Of a stretch of 64,000 bases of DNA, positions 2,538 to 43,670 are shown piece after piece; within the stretch, counting starts at the first letter, position 1, and each line of letters starts with the position of its first letter. Under the pieces are notes generated by a model. It ran no database searches, was not told the origin of the DNA, and worked only from the letters and a program-made list of their open reading frames with translations. The stretch comes from Candidatus Korobacter versatilis (GTDB lineage Bacteria; Acidobacteriota; Terriglobia; Terriglobales; Acidobacteriaceae). A program made the position numbers and the translations under genes. The stretch lies in the NCBI GenBank assembly GCA_016185395.1, contig JACPNR010000006.1, positions 62,001-126,000 on the forward strand, written 5' to 3'.

Positions 2538-3830
2538 TCAGAGGCTCTTGAAGCTTTCCCGCGCTGCTTCCACCGTCTCCCGAACATCGTCTTCCGTGTG
2601 CGCGTTGCTCAGGAAGGCGGCTTCGTATTGCGATGGCGGCAGATAGACGCCGCGCTCGAGCATGGCGCGATGCCACTTGCCGAACGCGGCGGTGTCCGAC
2701 TTTGCCGCTGAATCCCAGTCGCTGACCTTTCCCGACTGGAAGAACCACGTGAACATCGAGCCCACGCGGTTGGCCGTAAGCTTCACGCCGGCGGCTTCCG
2801 CCGCGGCCGAGACCTTCTCCACCAGCACGCCGGCGAGCGATTCGAGGCGCGTGTAGATCTCCGGATGCGCGCGCAGGTGCTTCAGGGTCGCCAGGCCCGC
2901 GGCCATGGCGAGCGGATTACCGCTCAGCGTCCCGGCCTGGTATACGGGGCCGAGCGGCGCGACCTTGTCCATGATCTCGGCGCGACCGCCGTAGGCGCCG
3001 ACCGGCAGGCCGCCGCCGATGATCTTGCCCAGCGTGGTGAGGTCGGGCGTGATGCCGTAGAGTTGCTGCGCGCCGCCGAAGGCGACGCGGAAGCCGGTCA
3101 TGACTTCGTCGAGGATGAGCAGCGCGCCGGCGTTCTTTGTAATGGCCCTTAAAGCCTCGAGGTATCCGGCGACAGGCGGGACGCAGCCCATGTTGCCGAC
3201 GACCGGCTCCACGATCACGCACGCGATCTGGTCCTTGAACTTCGCGAACGCCTGCTCGACCGCGGCGACGTTGTTGTAGGGCAGCGCAAGGGTGAACTGC
3301 GCCAGCTCGTCGAGCACACCCGCGGAACCCGGGATACCGAGCGTCGCTACACCGGAGCCGGCCTTCACCAGCAGCGAATCGGCGTGGCCGTGGTAGCAGC
3401 CCTCGAATTTCACGATGTACTTGCGCGATGTGTGAGCACGAGCGAGACGGATGGCGGACATCGTGGCTTCCGTCCCGGAGCTGACGAAGCGCAGCTTCTC
3501 GATCACGGGGAACGCAGCGACGACCGCTTCCGCTAATTCCAGTTCGAGCGGCGTGGAAGCGCCGAAGCTCGCGCCCGAGCGCGCGGCTGCTTCGATCGCG
3601 CGCGTCACTTCCGGGTGCGCATGGCCGAGGATGAGCGGCCCCCACGAGCCGACGTAGTCGAGGTACTGGTTGCCGTCCGCGTCCCAGAGGAGCGTGCCGT
3701 TGCCGCGGACGATCCAGGGCGGGTCGCCGCCGACCGCGCGGAAGGCGCGCACCGGGGAATCCACGCCGCCGGGTATCACCTTTTCGGCGCGCTGCTGCAG
3801 CTTGCGGGAGAGTTCTGTCTTGCGGGGCAA
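2538..3830 (-). CDS. hemL: Glutamate-1-semialdehyde 2,1-aminomutase
   Basis: A 430-residue PLP-dependent class III aminotransferase fold enzyme converting glutamate-1-semialdehyde to 5-aminolevulinate in the C5 route to heme. Visible are the N-terminal [12 protein letters not shown], the cofactor-binding S-S-G-T-E-A (about 117-122), C-Y-H-G-H, the D-E-V pair (241-242) and the PLP lysine in [10 protein letters not shown] (Lys269). Length and motifs are standard. It is convergent with the deacetylase and divergent from mfd; no other heme gene is adjacent. Confidence 0.97.
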
Positions 3831-3837
3831 GGAAGAA

Positions 3838-3870
3838 ATCTACCACGGAGACACGGAGAGGACGGAGGCG
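3838..3870. repeat. Half-copy of a CCACGGAGACACGGAG-type repeat
   Basis: The unit CCACGGAGACACGGAGAGGA lies just upstream of the hemL start in the hemL/mfd divergent region. It resembles one arm of the CCACxGAxGACACGAAGG-type palindromes found elsewhere in this window, without a matching second arm. Confidence 0.5.
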
Positions 3871-3958
3871 TTAGGAACTCGACGGCGTTCAGGTTCGGAT
3901 GGCATCCGGCTGGCGGCGGGCGCACTGCGTTCCGCGCTGGTAGAATCGATGGAGAGTC

Positions 3959-6900
3959 ATGGTGCAGCCGTTTGTCCGCGAGCTGTTCGCGGACGTGGAA
4001 AAGTCTGACGCTTTCCGGCGTGTCCTCCTCCCTCTCAAGCGAGGGACCTCTGCCGCTCCCGGACCGGGGACGGGGGGTACAAAGGCGGGCGCGGGGCGGA
4101 CCCGTGTCTCCGGACTCACTCCTGCCGCAAAAGCCCTGCATCTTCCCTTGCTGCGCCGTGGCGCGCAGCGTCCACTGCTGGTCATCGTGCGCGACAACCG
4201 CGCGGCCGACGCACAGCTGCCGGTATTGCGCGCGGCGTGCGAACTGACCGGCGCTGCCGATCCGGATGCGACCATCGCGCTGCCCGCATATGACGTGCTG
4301 CCGTTCGAGAACCAGTCGCCGCATCCGGAGATACAGGAAGAACGCGCGGCCGCGTTGTGGAAGATAGCGACCGGCGCGGCGGAGATCGTGGTGGCGCCGA
4401 TCGAGTCCGCGCTGATGCGGATGCGCCCGGCGGAGCACTACTCCGGCCTGGCACGCACGCTGCGCAAGGGTGAGAGCCTCGACAGCGAGCGCCTGGTCGA
4501 GCACCTGAACCTGGTCGGGTACGTGAAGGTGGACGTGGTCGAGATGCCCGGGCAATACGCGGTGCGCGGCGGCATCCTCGACGTGTACTCGCCCGAGATG
4601 GACCGTCCCGCGCGCGCCGAGTTTTTCGGCGACGAGATCGAGTCGCTGCGCAAGTTCGACCCCGCGTCGCAGCGCTCGCAGAATCCGCTGGACGAGGCCG
4701 TGCTTTTGCCGCTCACCGAGACTGCCGTCAGCGAAGAGACGCTCGCTGCCATCCACACGCGGCTTTCCGGCCGTCGCATCACCGGCGCGGAAGCGACCGT
4801 GGAAGAGGCGGTCGTCGCGGCCGGCGTGAGCGTTTTTCCCGGCTGGGAACTGTACGCGCCCGTCGCGGGAGCGTCCGCGACCTTGCTCGACCTGCTGCCG
4901 GAAGCGGCCGTGTTCGTGGATGAGCCCGGCGAGGTCGCGCGCGAGCTGGAAGCGTTCTGGGAACGGCTCGAGGCCGCGCACGAGCAGAGCGGCGTGGGCA
5001 AGCTGGTGCGTCCGGAGGAGTTGTTCCTTTCGCCGGACGAGTGGCAGGCGGCGCTGGCGCCGCGCGCGGGTGGGTCGCTTGAACATCTTGGCATCGAGAC
5101 CGCGGACACCGCGACCATCACCCTCGCTTCACAACCCACGCCGAAGTTTCACGGCGCGGTGCCCGCGCTGGTGGAAGAGGTCCAGCGGCTGACGGCGGAG
5201 GGACGCCGCGTGCTTTTCTGCGCCGGCTCGACCGGCGAACTGGAGCGGCTCGCCGACATCTTCACCGAATACAGCGTGCCCTTCCGCCTGGGCATGCGCA
5301 CCGGCACCGCCGGCGGGGAGAGCTTCCTCGATGAAGCGGCGTACTTCACCGAAGACGTGTTCGCGACCACGCTGGTCCGCGCGTATGTGCCGGACGGCGT
5401 GTTGCTGCCGGCATCGCGCCTCGCGGTCTTTGGCTCGCGCGACCTGTTCGACGAGTCCGAAGCTTCCGTCTCGCGACCCATCAAGCAGAAGTCGAAGACC
5501 GCGGCGTTCATGTCCGACTTCCGCGACCTGGCCGTCGGCGACTACGTCGTCCACGTGGAGCACGGCATCGGCCAGTACTGCGGCCTGCGCGAGATCGAGC
5601 AGGAAGGCGCGAAAGCCGAGTTCATGGTGCTGGAATACGCCGAGGCGGCCAAGCTCTACGTTCCCCTCACGCGCCTCGACCTCATCCAGAAATATCGGTC
5701 GGCGGAAGGCGCCAAGCCTGTGCTCAGCCGCTTAGGAACCGCGGCGTGGCAGAAGACGAAGACGCGCGTGAAGAAGGCCATGAAAGAGATGGCCGACGAG
5801 TTGCTCAGGCTCTACGCCGCGCGCAAGACCGCCGAAGGCCACAAGTTCCCGGCCGACACCGATTGGCAGCGCGAGTTCGAAGACGCGTTCGAGTTCCAGG
5901 AGACCGAAGACCAGACTGCTGCGGTCGCCGATATCAAGGCCGACATGCAGTCGCAGCAGCCCATGGACCGCCTGCTCTGCGGCGACGTCGGCTACGGCAA
6001 GACTGAAGTTGCCATGCGCGCGGCGTTCAAGGCGGTGAGCGACGGCAAGCAGGTCGCCGTGCTCGCGCCGACGACCGTCCTCGCCTTCCAGCACTTCGAG
6101 ACGTTCAAAGAGCGGTTCAAGCAGTTTCCGCTGACCATCGAGATGATCTCGCGCTTCCGCACGCCGAAGCAGCAGAAGGCCATCGTCGAAAAAGTGGAGC
6201 AGGGAAAAGTGGACGTGCTCATCGGCACGCACCGCCTGCTCTCGAAGGACATCAAGTTCCAGGACCTCGGGCTGCTCGTGGTGGACGAGGAGCAGCGCTT
6301 CGGCGTCCGCCACAAGGAGCGGCTGAAGCAGATGAAGCGCGAGGTGGACGTGCTGACGATGTCGGCCACGCCCATCCCGCGGACGCTGCACATGGCCGTG
6401 GTCGGGCTGCGCGACATGAGCGTGATCGAGACGCCGCCGAAAGACCGCATCGCCATCCAGACGGTCGTGGCCGCGTTCGACGAGAAGCTCATCAAGTCTG
6501 CCCTCGAGCAGGAGATCGAGCGCGGCGGGCAGGTCTACTTCGTCCACAACCGCGTGGAGTCCATCTACGAGATCGCGGCGAAGATCAAGGACCTCGTGCC
6601 GAAAGCGCGCGTGCTCGTGGGCCACGGGCAGATGAGCGAGACCGAGCTGGAGAGCGTGATGCTCGGCTTCATCCGCCACGAGGCCGATGTGCTGGTCGCG
6701 ACCACCATCATCGAGAACGGACTCGACATCCCCCTGTGCAACACCATCCTCATCAACCGCGCCGACCGGCATGGGCTGTCGGAGCTCTACCAGTTGCGCG
6801 GGCGCGTGGGCCGGTCGAACCGCCGGGCGTACGCATATTTGCTCGTCCCGCCGGAGCAAGAGCTGACGGCCATCGCGCGGCGGCGGCTGGCTGCGCTGAA

Positions 6901-12564: not shown

Positions 12565-13899
12565 CTACGGTTCGTACACGCCGCTGCGCCAGAGCTCGGG
12601 CATGCCGTCGCGCAGGACGCGGTAGAGGCCGTAGCGATAGGAGCCCTCGCCGACGATGCGAAAGAGGAGCTCGCCGCGGCCCTTGCCGTCGGCGTCGATG
12701 GGGCCGACGAGCTCCATGCGCGGGATGGCGTCGAGGTGGTCCTTGTCGGTGACGACAGCAAAGACCTTTTGCGGGGTGAACTCGAGATCGGTGCGCGCGA
12801 CCAGCGTGACGAAGACGTCTGCGGCGGTGGCGGTGACGACCAGCTCCACGTTGTTGTCGAGGGCGAGGTCGTAGCCGGTGACCTGGACGTTCTCGAACTT
12901 CACGGCGGGCGCGGCTTTCTTCGCGGTCCTCTTTCCCGGCGTCTGCTTTCCCGGCGTCTGCTTTGCCGGCGGCGCGCCGCCACGGGCGGCGCGGTACTTG
13001 GCGACCTCGGCCTCGGCGAGCGCGATGGTCTTGGCTTTGAGCGCGCGCTCTTCTTCGGCTTTCCAAGGAAAGGCGTAGCTGCGCGTGGGGCCGGTGCCAT
13101 CGGGATCGGAGACCGCGAGGAAGACCTGGGCGGCTTGGAACGCTGGACCGCCGGGACGCTTGGCGAGCGTGGGATGGTCGCCTGCGGCTTTCGGCGCGGT
13201 CACTGGGGGCGGCTCGAGCGTGGCGCTGACCTGCGAGCCCCCACCGCCGCGCCGCAGCGTGGGACGGTCGGGATCGCTCGCGCCGGCGGAAGCGCTGGGT
13301 GTTACCGGTGAAGCAGGCGCGGGGCGGTCCGGCTGCGCCTTGTCCGGCACGGTGAGTGGGTGGTCTTCCTGCTTGTGCGGCGGCGGCCCCGTCTCGCCGG
13401 ATTTAGGCCTGCGCAGCACGGGCGGGCCTTCGTCGGCGACGGGGCGCGTCTTCTCGCGGCGGGCGGCGGCCGCCTTTTCGGCGCGCTCGATCTCGGCGCG
13501 CGACTTCCACTCGCCCACGCCGAACCACTCGCCCTTTTCCTGACGGGCGAGGCCGACGGTGAAGAAGCCGGCGGGCTCGCCGTTGGCGAGCGCCTCATAG
13601 ACGGTGCCGGGATCGAGGGCGAGGGGGCGCGGGGTGGCGTCGTAGCTGGCAGCGTCGTACCATTTGTCGTTGACGAGGATGGCGACGGGCAGGAGCTTGG
13701 CGCCGGTGGGCTTGGCCGTGACGCCGGCGCCGGGCGGTCCGTAGAGCTCGACGAGGGCGAGCGCGCGGAGCTGGTGCGAGCGCTTGCGCTGGGCGTGTGC
13801 GAGTATGCCCGCGGCAAGAAGCGCGGCGCAGGTGACGGCAAGCACGAGTTTGCGGTATAAGGGCGACTTCGGTGAGCGTGTCCGCAGGAGAACCGTCAT
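12565..13899 (-). CDS. Exported protein of unknown function with a Pro/Lys-rich middle
   Basis: About 444 residues and no family recognised. An N-terminal hydrophobic segment (about residues 17-35, ending A-H-A-Q) looks like a signal peptide or anchor. A first folded part includes V-A-I-L-V-N-D-K-W-Y-D-A-A-S-Y. A long low-complexity region rich in Pro, Lys, Arg and Glu follows, with the repeat K-Q-T-P-G-K-Q-T-P-G-K. A C-terminal domain of about 150 residues has a beta-rich pattern. The ATG at 13899 shares the CATG tetranucleotide with the start of the divergent peroxiredoxin; the true start may be slightly downstream. Confidence 0.75.
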   Translation of the reverse strand: MTVLLRTRSPKSPLYRKLVLAVTCAALLAAGILAHAQRKRSHQLRALALVELYGPPGAGVTAKPTGAKLLPVAILVNDKWYDAASYDATPRPLALDPGTVYEALANGEPAGFFTVGLARQEKGEWFGVGEWKSRAEIERAEKAAAARREKTRPVADEGPPVLRRPKSGETGPPPHKQEDHPLTVPDKAQPDRPAPASPVTPSASAGASDPDRPTLRRGGGGSQVSATLEPPPVTAPKAAGDHPTLAKRPGGPAFQAAQVFLAVSDPDGTGPTRSYAFPWKAEEERALKAKTIALAEAEVAKYRAARGGAPPAKQTPGKQTPGKRTAKKAAPAVKFENVQVTGYDLALDNNVELVVTATAADVFVTLVARTDLEFTPQKVFAVVTDKDHLDAIPRMELVGPIDADGKGRGELLFRIVGEGSYRYGLYRVLRDGMPELWRSGVYEP

Positions 13900-14356
13900 G
13901 TTGGAAGCGAACGACAAAGCACCTGATTTTACCGTGCCGGACGAGACCGGCGCCGACGTCCGCCTAAAAGACTTTCGCGGCAAGAGCGTGGTGCTGTTCT
14001 TCTTCCCCAAGGCCGACACGCCCGGTTGAACCATCGAAGCGTGCGGGTTCCGCGACGCATACAAGAAGATACAGAAAGCCGGCGTGACCGTGCTCGGCAT
14101 CTCCGGCGACACTCCCGCGGCGCAGAAGAAGTTCAAGGAGAAGTACGACCTGCCGTACACGCTGCTCGCCGACGCCGACAAGAAAGTCTCGAACGCCTTC
14201 GGCGTGATCAAAGAGAAGAACATGTACGGCAGGAAGTACAAAGGCATTGCGCGGACGACGTTCGTGATCGGCCCGGAGGGGAAGATCGCGAAAGTGTTCG
14301 AGAACGTGAAGCCGGACGGGCACGCGGAGGAAGTGCTTGCGGCGGTGAAAAGCTAG
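13898..14356 (+). CDS. bcp: Selenocysteine-containing BCP/PrxQ peroxiredoxin (in-frame UGA)
   Basis: A 152-residue thiol peroxidase of the PrxQ/BCP type, reducing H2O2 and organic hydroperoxides. The frame has one internal TGA at 14027-14029, exactly at the peroxidatic position: the family motif is T-P-G-C-T-x-E-A-C, and here the first Cys codon is UGA (Sec44) while the second Cys (Cys49) is kept. Before it are F-F-F-P-K-A-D-T-P-G; after it G-F-R-D, G-I-S-G-D and R-T-T-F-V-I-G. Both halves are full family sequence with no other lesion. AGGAG at 13886-13890 supports the ATG at 13898. A SECIS-like hairpin follows the UGA. Automatic annotation would split this gene. Confidence 0.93.
14039..14058 (+). 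promoter_or_regulatory. Candidate bacterial SECIS hairpin of the peroxiredoxin
   Basis: GCGTGCGG pairs with CCGCGACGC around a three-base loop GTT (14047-14049), giving eight G-C, C-G and T-A pairs with one bulged G (14054). The loop starts 17 bases after the UGA and its first base is G. Spacing and loop fit the published bacterial SECIS pattern bound by SelB. Confidence 0.75.
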
Positions 14357-41609: not shown

Positions 41610-43004
<1,395 letters not shown>

Positions 43005-43022
<18 letters not shown>

Positions 43023-43670
43023 GATGGTCCCGGGCACGTGCTGGAACTCGAACTGCCGCAGCGCTTCCGTCAGCACGCGCATCTGGCGGTCGCGTTCGCC
43101 GGCCGAACCGAGCACCCGGCCAAGCGCGTGTCCCACGGGATGCACCGCGCGCGGCGGACGCATCGGGCGGGAGTCCTCCGGCGACACGGTGATGAGCACC
43201 GTCGGTATCCCCTTCGCTTCAATCTCTCGTTGCACCGCAACGATCACCCGATGGCAGACCGGTCAACCGCCGGTGAGCACGATGGCATCCGCCTGCGAGC
43301 GCTCGATCTCCGCGGCGATGGCGGGCGCGAGCCGCTCGTACTGCGCCTTCAGGTCGGGCGAGTAGCCCTTGAATCCGATGTGCTTGTTCCCCACGCGTTT
43401 GATGAAGCCCTCTGCCGCGAGTTCGCGCAAGCGGTCGAGCGGGAAGACGCTGTTGGCGTCTTTCTGGGCGTTCGTGAGGTCGTAGTGCCCGTGCTTGAAG
43501 CGCAGCAGCGAGGTGTCGGCGTCGCCGGAAATGACGCGATACGTCTCGTCGCCGTCGTCGGAGTACGCCTCCTGCCCTTCGAGGTAGACGCCGGTGGAGC
43601 TCACCAGCGCGACCGTCAGCTCGGCGAGCTTTGCCGTGACCGGCGTGTAGGGCACGCACTTCCTCGACAT
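43005..43670 (-). CDS. GrdB-like selenoprotein (glycine/betaine reductase selenoprotein B family), in-frame UGA
   Basis: A 221-residue protein read through TGA at 43263-43265 (Sec136). Before it: Y-R-V-I-S-G-D-A-D, V-F-P-L-D-R-L-R-E-L-A and D-A-I-V-L-T-G-G; at the site U-P-V-C-H-R; after it I-E-A-K-G-I-P-T-V-L-I-T, M-R-P-P-R-A and G-H-A-L-G-R. This is the stand-alone, GrdB-related family known to carry UxxC or CxxC. Its substrate is unknown; a redox role is inferred. Starts at 43670 or 43685 are possible. A hairpin fitting SECIS follows the UGA. It is 162 bases upstream of tgt. Confidence 0.9.
43227..43243 (-). promoter_or_regulatory. Candidate bacterial SECIS hairpin of the GrdB-like gene
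   Basis: On the minus strand TCGTTGC and GCAACGA form a perfect seven-pair stem with loop GGT (43234-43236). The loop begins 26 bases after the UGA and starts with G. Spacing and loop fit the bacterial SECIS pattern. Confidence 0.75.

Follow-up and report, generated by a model that had tools for sequence, protein, structure and literature searches.

The gene at positions 43,005 to 43,670 of the window (the whole stretch of 64,000 nucleotides of Candidatus Korobacter versatilis DNA that was analysed) is identified by comparison with its relatives as encoding a true selenoprotein that belongs to the PrdB/GrdB superfamily. Its UGA codon 136 is evidently decoded as Sec with the help of a hairpin that follows shortly after, and relatives use Sec and Cys interchangeably at this position. 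By the evidence of gene neighbourhoods and co-occurrence, the clade of this protein is linked genetically to a peroxiredoxin of AhpE type that has Sec, or rarely Cys, at its peroxidatic position and no conserved second Cys; the clade lacks the PrdA/GrdE partner required by proline or glycine reductase. This comparative-genomic tie suggests that the protein more likely helps to destroy peroxides than to ferment amino acids. The features of the gene and its surroundings are the following.

43005-43670, minus strand: gene of the predicted PrdB-like selenoprotein (ATG at 43670, TGA stop at 43007-43005; 221 residues, one Sec)
43263-43265, minus strand: in-frame TGA, predicted codon of Sec136 (the U of GG-U-P-V-C); TGA also in the orthologues of genomes G119, G075, G018 and G030
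43254-43256, minus strand: Cys139, second residue of the UxxC motif; invariant in alignments A1 (n=9) and A2 (n=14)
43227-43243, minus strand: putative bacterial-type SECIS hairpin, TCGTTGC-GGT-GCAACGA (17 nt), inside the coding sequence; seven perfect base pairs, loop GGU
41610-42842, minus strand: tgt (queuine tRNA-ribosyltransferase, PF01702), downstream neighbour, used as a synteny marker only
13898-14356, plus strand: PrxQ/BCP-type thiol peroxidase, the other predicted selenoprotein of the window (T-P-G-U, TGA at the peroxidatic position)

The minus-strand frame is open across the TGA at 43265-43263, as the sequence-only reading had proposed in joining two frames at one UGA, and the residues around Sec136 read LTGG-U-PVC-HRV. 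The terminal stop of the gene (43007-43005) is likewise a TGA. A search of 300 genomes of the same family as the window genome yielded eight close orthologues, 67-82% identical, all of which aligned end to end and ungapped except for the last 1-3 residues. At the position of codon 136, TGA was found in the four genomes given above and TGC or TGT in G001 (same genus), G162, G089 and G023. The UxxC motif of the window protein is U-P-V-C. In a tree of 29 members five Sec/Cys changes were required. Conserved gene order was seen beside the orthologues in G001, G030, G023, G089 and G162, where tgt is followed by yajC and secD.

Taking into account that four orthologues carry TGA and four a Cys codon, a sequencing error or a pseudogene, in which the TGA would be a mistake or a true stop and the product would end at residue 135, is exceedingly improbable and was rejected. 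Coding conservation on both sides of the TGA, the conserved hairpin and the presence of selA and selB speak against it as well; in its favour is the failure to find tRNA-Sec in the assembly of the window genome. The earlier judgement that a sequencing error was very unlikely was thus borne out, and close relatives do not end at the same UGA: they have Cys there and read on.

Genes for selA and selB were detected in the same genome (555 and 366 bits, above the cut-offs), in agreement with the earlier claim of an active Sec system. Neither Rfam nor a same-genus tRNA-Sec used as query revealed a tRNA-Sec gene in the assembly (90% complete, 15 contigs); clear tRNA-Sec genes were seen in relatives only. 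Those Rfam tRNA matches that could be named by ARAGORN were ordinary Gly, Ser, Tyr, Lys and Trp tRNAs, and the same-genus query matched only 19 bases, in a stretch without a tRNA. The same assembly does carry several selenoprotein genes with TGA alongside selA and selB. As it is only 90% complete, the missing tRNA-Sec would most simply be explained by a gap.

Bacterial SECIS elements have a G in the loop, which lies about 16-37 nt after the UGA. The hairpin of the window gene falls within this range: it begins 19 nt and its loop 26 nt past the TGA. The seven pairs and the GGT loop had been correctly noted before, but the 26 bases then given as the distance of the hairpin are the distance to the loop. 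Of the 1522 TGAs in the window, 16 (1.1%) have downstream, in the tested range, a perfect 7-bp hairpin whose loop contains a G, and for 3 (0.2%) the loop is 3 nt long, so that the hairpin is by itself modest evidence. Rfam SECIS_4, the sole Rfam match at the site, scored 20.8 bits, far under its gathering score of 38. In the window's family, however, the hairpin seems more than chance, as it tracks the TGA: the five TGA genes (the window gene included) all have it, unchanged or with GGC as the loop, and in the four Cys orthologues it is disrupted, the codons in the region being CAA CGA in the former and CAG CGG in the latter.

Two more distant loci retain the hairpin sequence in whole or in part. 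In locus L054 a Cys-type PrdB-like gene (3596-4258), which adjoins a peroxiredoxin gene still using TGA, has kept the exact 17-nt hairpin sequence of the window gene, and in L091 the sequence is retained in part. Such hairpins are as expected of relics after a Sec-to-Cys change, which have been described (PMC1794560); part of the retained sequence could stem from constraint on the peptide VAVQR.

The protein had been called GrdB-like. The superfamily match stands (Pfam GRDB, PF07355, 42.2 bits against a gathering score of 22), but it covers profile positions 213-345 of 347, the C-terminal third only, and the nearest family is PrdB. The best model was that of D-proline reductase PrdB (TIGR04483), with 158.1 bits over residues 8-208 and a cut-off of 300 that was not reached, whereas GrdB-type models gave 50 bits at most (TIGR01917, 48.8 against a cut-off of 602). 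A PrdB annotated in Peptoclostridium acidaminophilum shares 42% identity with the window protein across 95% of the length. The PrdA/GrdE family PF09338 was absent from the window genome (90% complete) and from 21 of 22 clade-A genomes, the window genome included. The single exception, G637, has PF09338 on contig C53 beside other PrdB-like genes, while its clade-A copy lies separately on C44. The low GrdB scores and the lack of PF09338 led us to reject GrdB of glycine reductase, and the view of the gene as stand-alone, outside any glycine reductase operon, is upheld. Because PF09338 is absent and the TIGR04483 score is below the cut-off, the protein is on present evidence best regarded as PrdB-like and not as a component of a proline reductase.

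On contig C53 of G637 (L164, 27000-39000), PrdB-like genes with TGA lie in tandem and two PF09338 (PrdA/GrdE-type) genes are interspersed among them, possibly a real proline- or glycine-reductase-like cluster in Acidobacteriota. A second, larger PrdB-like clade, mostly with TGA and widespread in the phylum (L027-L032, L104-L117 and others), was also seen; those copies that were measured have about 33-40% identity to the window protein, and no peroxiredoxin was matched nearby in the loci checked.

The first Sec/Cys alone is universal among the aligned members. U-x-x-x-C or C-x-x-x-C occurs in the peroxiredoxin-linked branches L090-L099, and the more distant members L105, L108 and L112 have C-x-x-S, a group for which any model with two required residues must account. 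A search of the sequences of solved structures with the family profile gave no credible match, and no relative of the protein was found in the IMG/VR viral contigs. Because the AlphaFold2 model, built on five sequences, was of low confidence (mean pLDDT 69) and found no significant match in a PDB fold search (best E 0.018, query-normalised TM-scores at most 0.43), neither a thioredoxin fold nor any other fold can be claimed.

The function was approached through the neighbourhoods of the clade, defined as members scoring at least 194 bits against profile A1 (clade A). Of 396 Acidobacteriota genomes, 15 contained clade A and a further 87 only more distant members. At all 14 clade loci read outside the window's family (L118-L130 and L054), a gene for an AhpC/TSA peroxiredoxin lies directly upstream on the same strand, at a distance of 25-261 nt. 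In 13 of the 14, the peroxiredoxin has TGA at the peroxidatic position (T-P-V-U); the sole linked Cys peroxiredoxin, in L119, adjoins a Cys-type PrdB-like gene, and at none of these loci is a Sec PrdB-like protein paired with a Cys peroxiredoxin. Loci with a Cys-type PrdB-like protein (L125-L127, L054) show the linkage too. A second Cys is not conserved in the peroxiredoxin, and structures of Mycobacterium tuberculosis AhpE are among its best PDB matches.

The window's own locus has no upstream peroxiredoxin gene; a copy with one TGA is found elsewhere in the genome (G000:C3:211571-212050). In the window's family the two genes lie apart, yet each of the nine genomes that have the PrdB-like gene also has an orthologous TGA peroxiredoxin, scoring 166-194 bits, whereas none of the five compared genomes without the gene reaches this range, giving weaker matches only. 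When the 396 genomes were ranked by peroxiredoxin score, all 15 clade-A genomes were within the best 16; the lone exception, G531, has the peroxiredoxin without a PrdB-like gene within the 10 kb read. The nominal hypergeometric value of 3e-26 overstates the association, because adjacent genes are inherited together, as is the case for most of the phylum-wide association, and because the peroxiredoxin profile was partly built from the same loci. The linkage of PrdB-like and peroxiredoxin genes was not found in the open-licence papers searched, and earlier reports elsewhere are possible; in the same literature no papers on Acidobacteria PrdB or Solibacter selenoproteins were found. The substrate, formerly put down as unknown, can be narrowed, since the clade is tied to a Sec peroxiredoxin of AhpE type.

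Peroxiredoxins that lack a resolving Cys depend on an external electron donor, which for AhpE is mycoredoxin (Mrx1) or mycothiol (PMC4360819). On balance, we consider it more likely than not that the PrdB-like protein acts as a soluble thiol-selenol oxidoreductase and is the redox partner, probably the reductant, of the linked peroxiredoxin. Beyond the functional linkage of the two genes, we infer the following steps. Peroxide would oxidise the peroxiredoxin selenol to a selenenic acid, and Sec136 of the PrdB-like protein (Cys in relatives) would attack the oxidised peroxiredoxin. Cys139 would then resolve the mixed bond, leaving a Se-S bond within the PrdB-like protein, and the UxxC pair would be re-reduced by a thiol system of the cell, e.g. 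thioredoxin. The PrdB-like protein would thus take the role that the CxxC mycoredoxin has for M. tuberculosis AhpE.

Two other functions have to be weighed against this linkage. The protein could be a substrate-reducing enzyme of the proline/glycine reductase type that cleaves a C-N or other C-X bond of a small molecule, the peroxiredoxin only shielding this or other selenoproteins from peroxide. The identity to the P. acidaminophilum protein and the full-length match to the PrdB model (see above) are compatible with such an enzyme, as are Sec peroxiredoxins in amino-acid-fermenting anaerobes (work cited in PMC13188914) and the FlK-like thioesterase gene that precedes the PrdB-like gene, in the same orientation, in some members of the family. 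We nevertheless regard it as less likely: 21 of 22 genomes have no PrdA/GrdE partner, in G637 the PrdB-like genes next to PF09338 (C53) are distinct from the clade-A copy, which sits with a peroxiredoxin (C44), and across branches outside the window's family it is the peroxiredoxin, and no substrate-type gene, that is constant. The second possibility, a general thiol redox or repair selenoprotein with several partners, whose linkage would mark a shared selenium-stress regulon and not a direct pair, appears less likely still. It would fit the separation of the two genes in the window's family and the clustering of selenoprotein genes of different redox families, known from PMC13188914 (section 9) and PMC2398784, but in several Acidobacteriota families the linkage involves one and the same type of peroxiredoxin, Cys-type PrdB-like members included (L125-L127, L054).

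Several loci of the window's family have the FlK-like hot-dog thioesterase gene (PF22636) ahead of the PrdB-like gene and in the same orientation, at a distance of up to about 0.4 kb in five of them and of 1.7 kb in L076; it is not beside the window copy or the copies of G001 and G018. The genes have the following locus coordinates.

L075 5115-5558, FlK-like thioesterase gene (PF22636)
L078 8614-8985, FlK-like thioesterase gene (PF22636)
L079 8688-9065, FlK-like thioesterase gene (PF22636)
L080 7230-7673, FlK-like thioesterase gene (PF22636)
L081 9084-9470, FlK-like thioesterase gene (PF22636)
L076 5920-6309, FlK-like thioesterase gene (PF22636)

The other selenoprotein gene of the window (13898-14356), with 168 bits against an NCBIfam cut-off of 140, encodes a PrxQ/BCP-type peroxiredoxin. 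The sequence-only reading had described the two selenoproteins as unrelated; the families are indeed different, yet this one is also a thiol-redox protein.

Compared with known systems, the window protein resembles D-proline reductase PrdB (TIGR04483) over the full length, in its UxxC motif, in the position of the Sec or Cys and in size (about 220-240 residues). It differs in its score (158 bits against 300), in the lack of PrdA and in its occurrence in Acidobacteriota, and its clade relatives are linked to a peroxiredoxin and not to a proline reductase operon. With GrdB (PF07355, TIGR01917) it has in common the Pfam GRDB match of 42 bits and UxxC, but the profile is covered partially, the score is far under the equivalog cut-off and a GrdE-family partner is lacking. 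The proposed likeness to the AhpE/mycoredoxin-1 pair of Mycobacterium tuberculosis is that a one-Cys or one-Sec peroxiredoxin would be recycled by a small two-residue redox protein; mycoredoxin is glutaredoxin-like, whereas the partner here is of the PrdB family, and both partners have Sec in many genomes.

PrdB-type UxxC selenoproteins have been published and are abundant, with 235 in the Global Ocean Sampling set and 42 in the Sargasso Sea (PMC1088965, PMC2398784). These ocean-metagenome proteins, named 'Proline reductase PrdB', likewise have UxxC and Cys homologues and are probably of the same broad kind as the window protein. They were assigned to proline reduction in those papers, whereas the clade of the window protein is linked to a peroxiredoxin.

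As far as comparative evidence can tell, one UGA is indeed translated as Sec in a soil-type Acidobacteriota genome, within a stand-alone relative of PrdB whose gene is split in two by callers that stop at UGA. PrdB-type selenoproteins are among the most abundant in ocean metagenomes and have been assigned to D-proline reduction; a clade without a proline reductase partner and tied to a Sec peroxiredoxin points to a definite function, open to testing, for some members of this widespread and possibly mis-labelled family. Tentatively, a new type of peroxiredoxin recycling may be envisaged, in which a PrdB-family selenoprotein (UxxC/UxxxC) would serve as the dedicated reductant of a one-Sec AhpE-like peroxiredoxin through a Se-to-Se electron relay in Acidobacteriota, and this may be the real job of many "proline reductase" genes. 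The linkage also offers a possible reason for keeping Sec in these bacteria.
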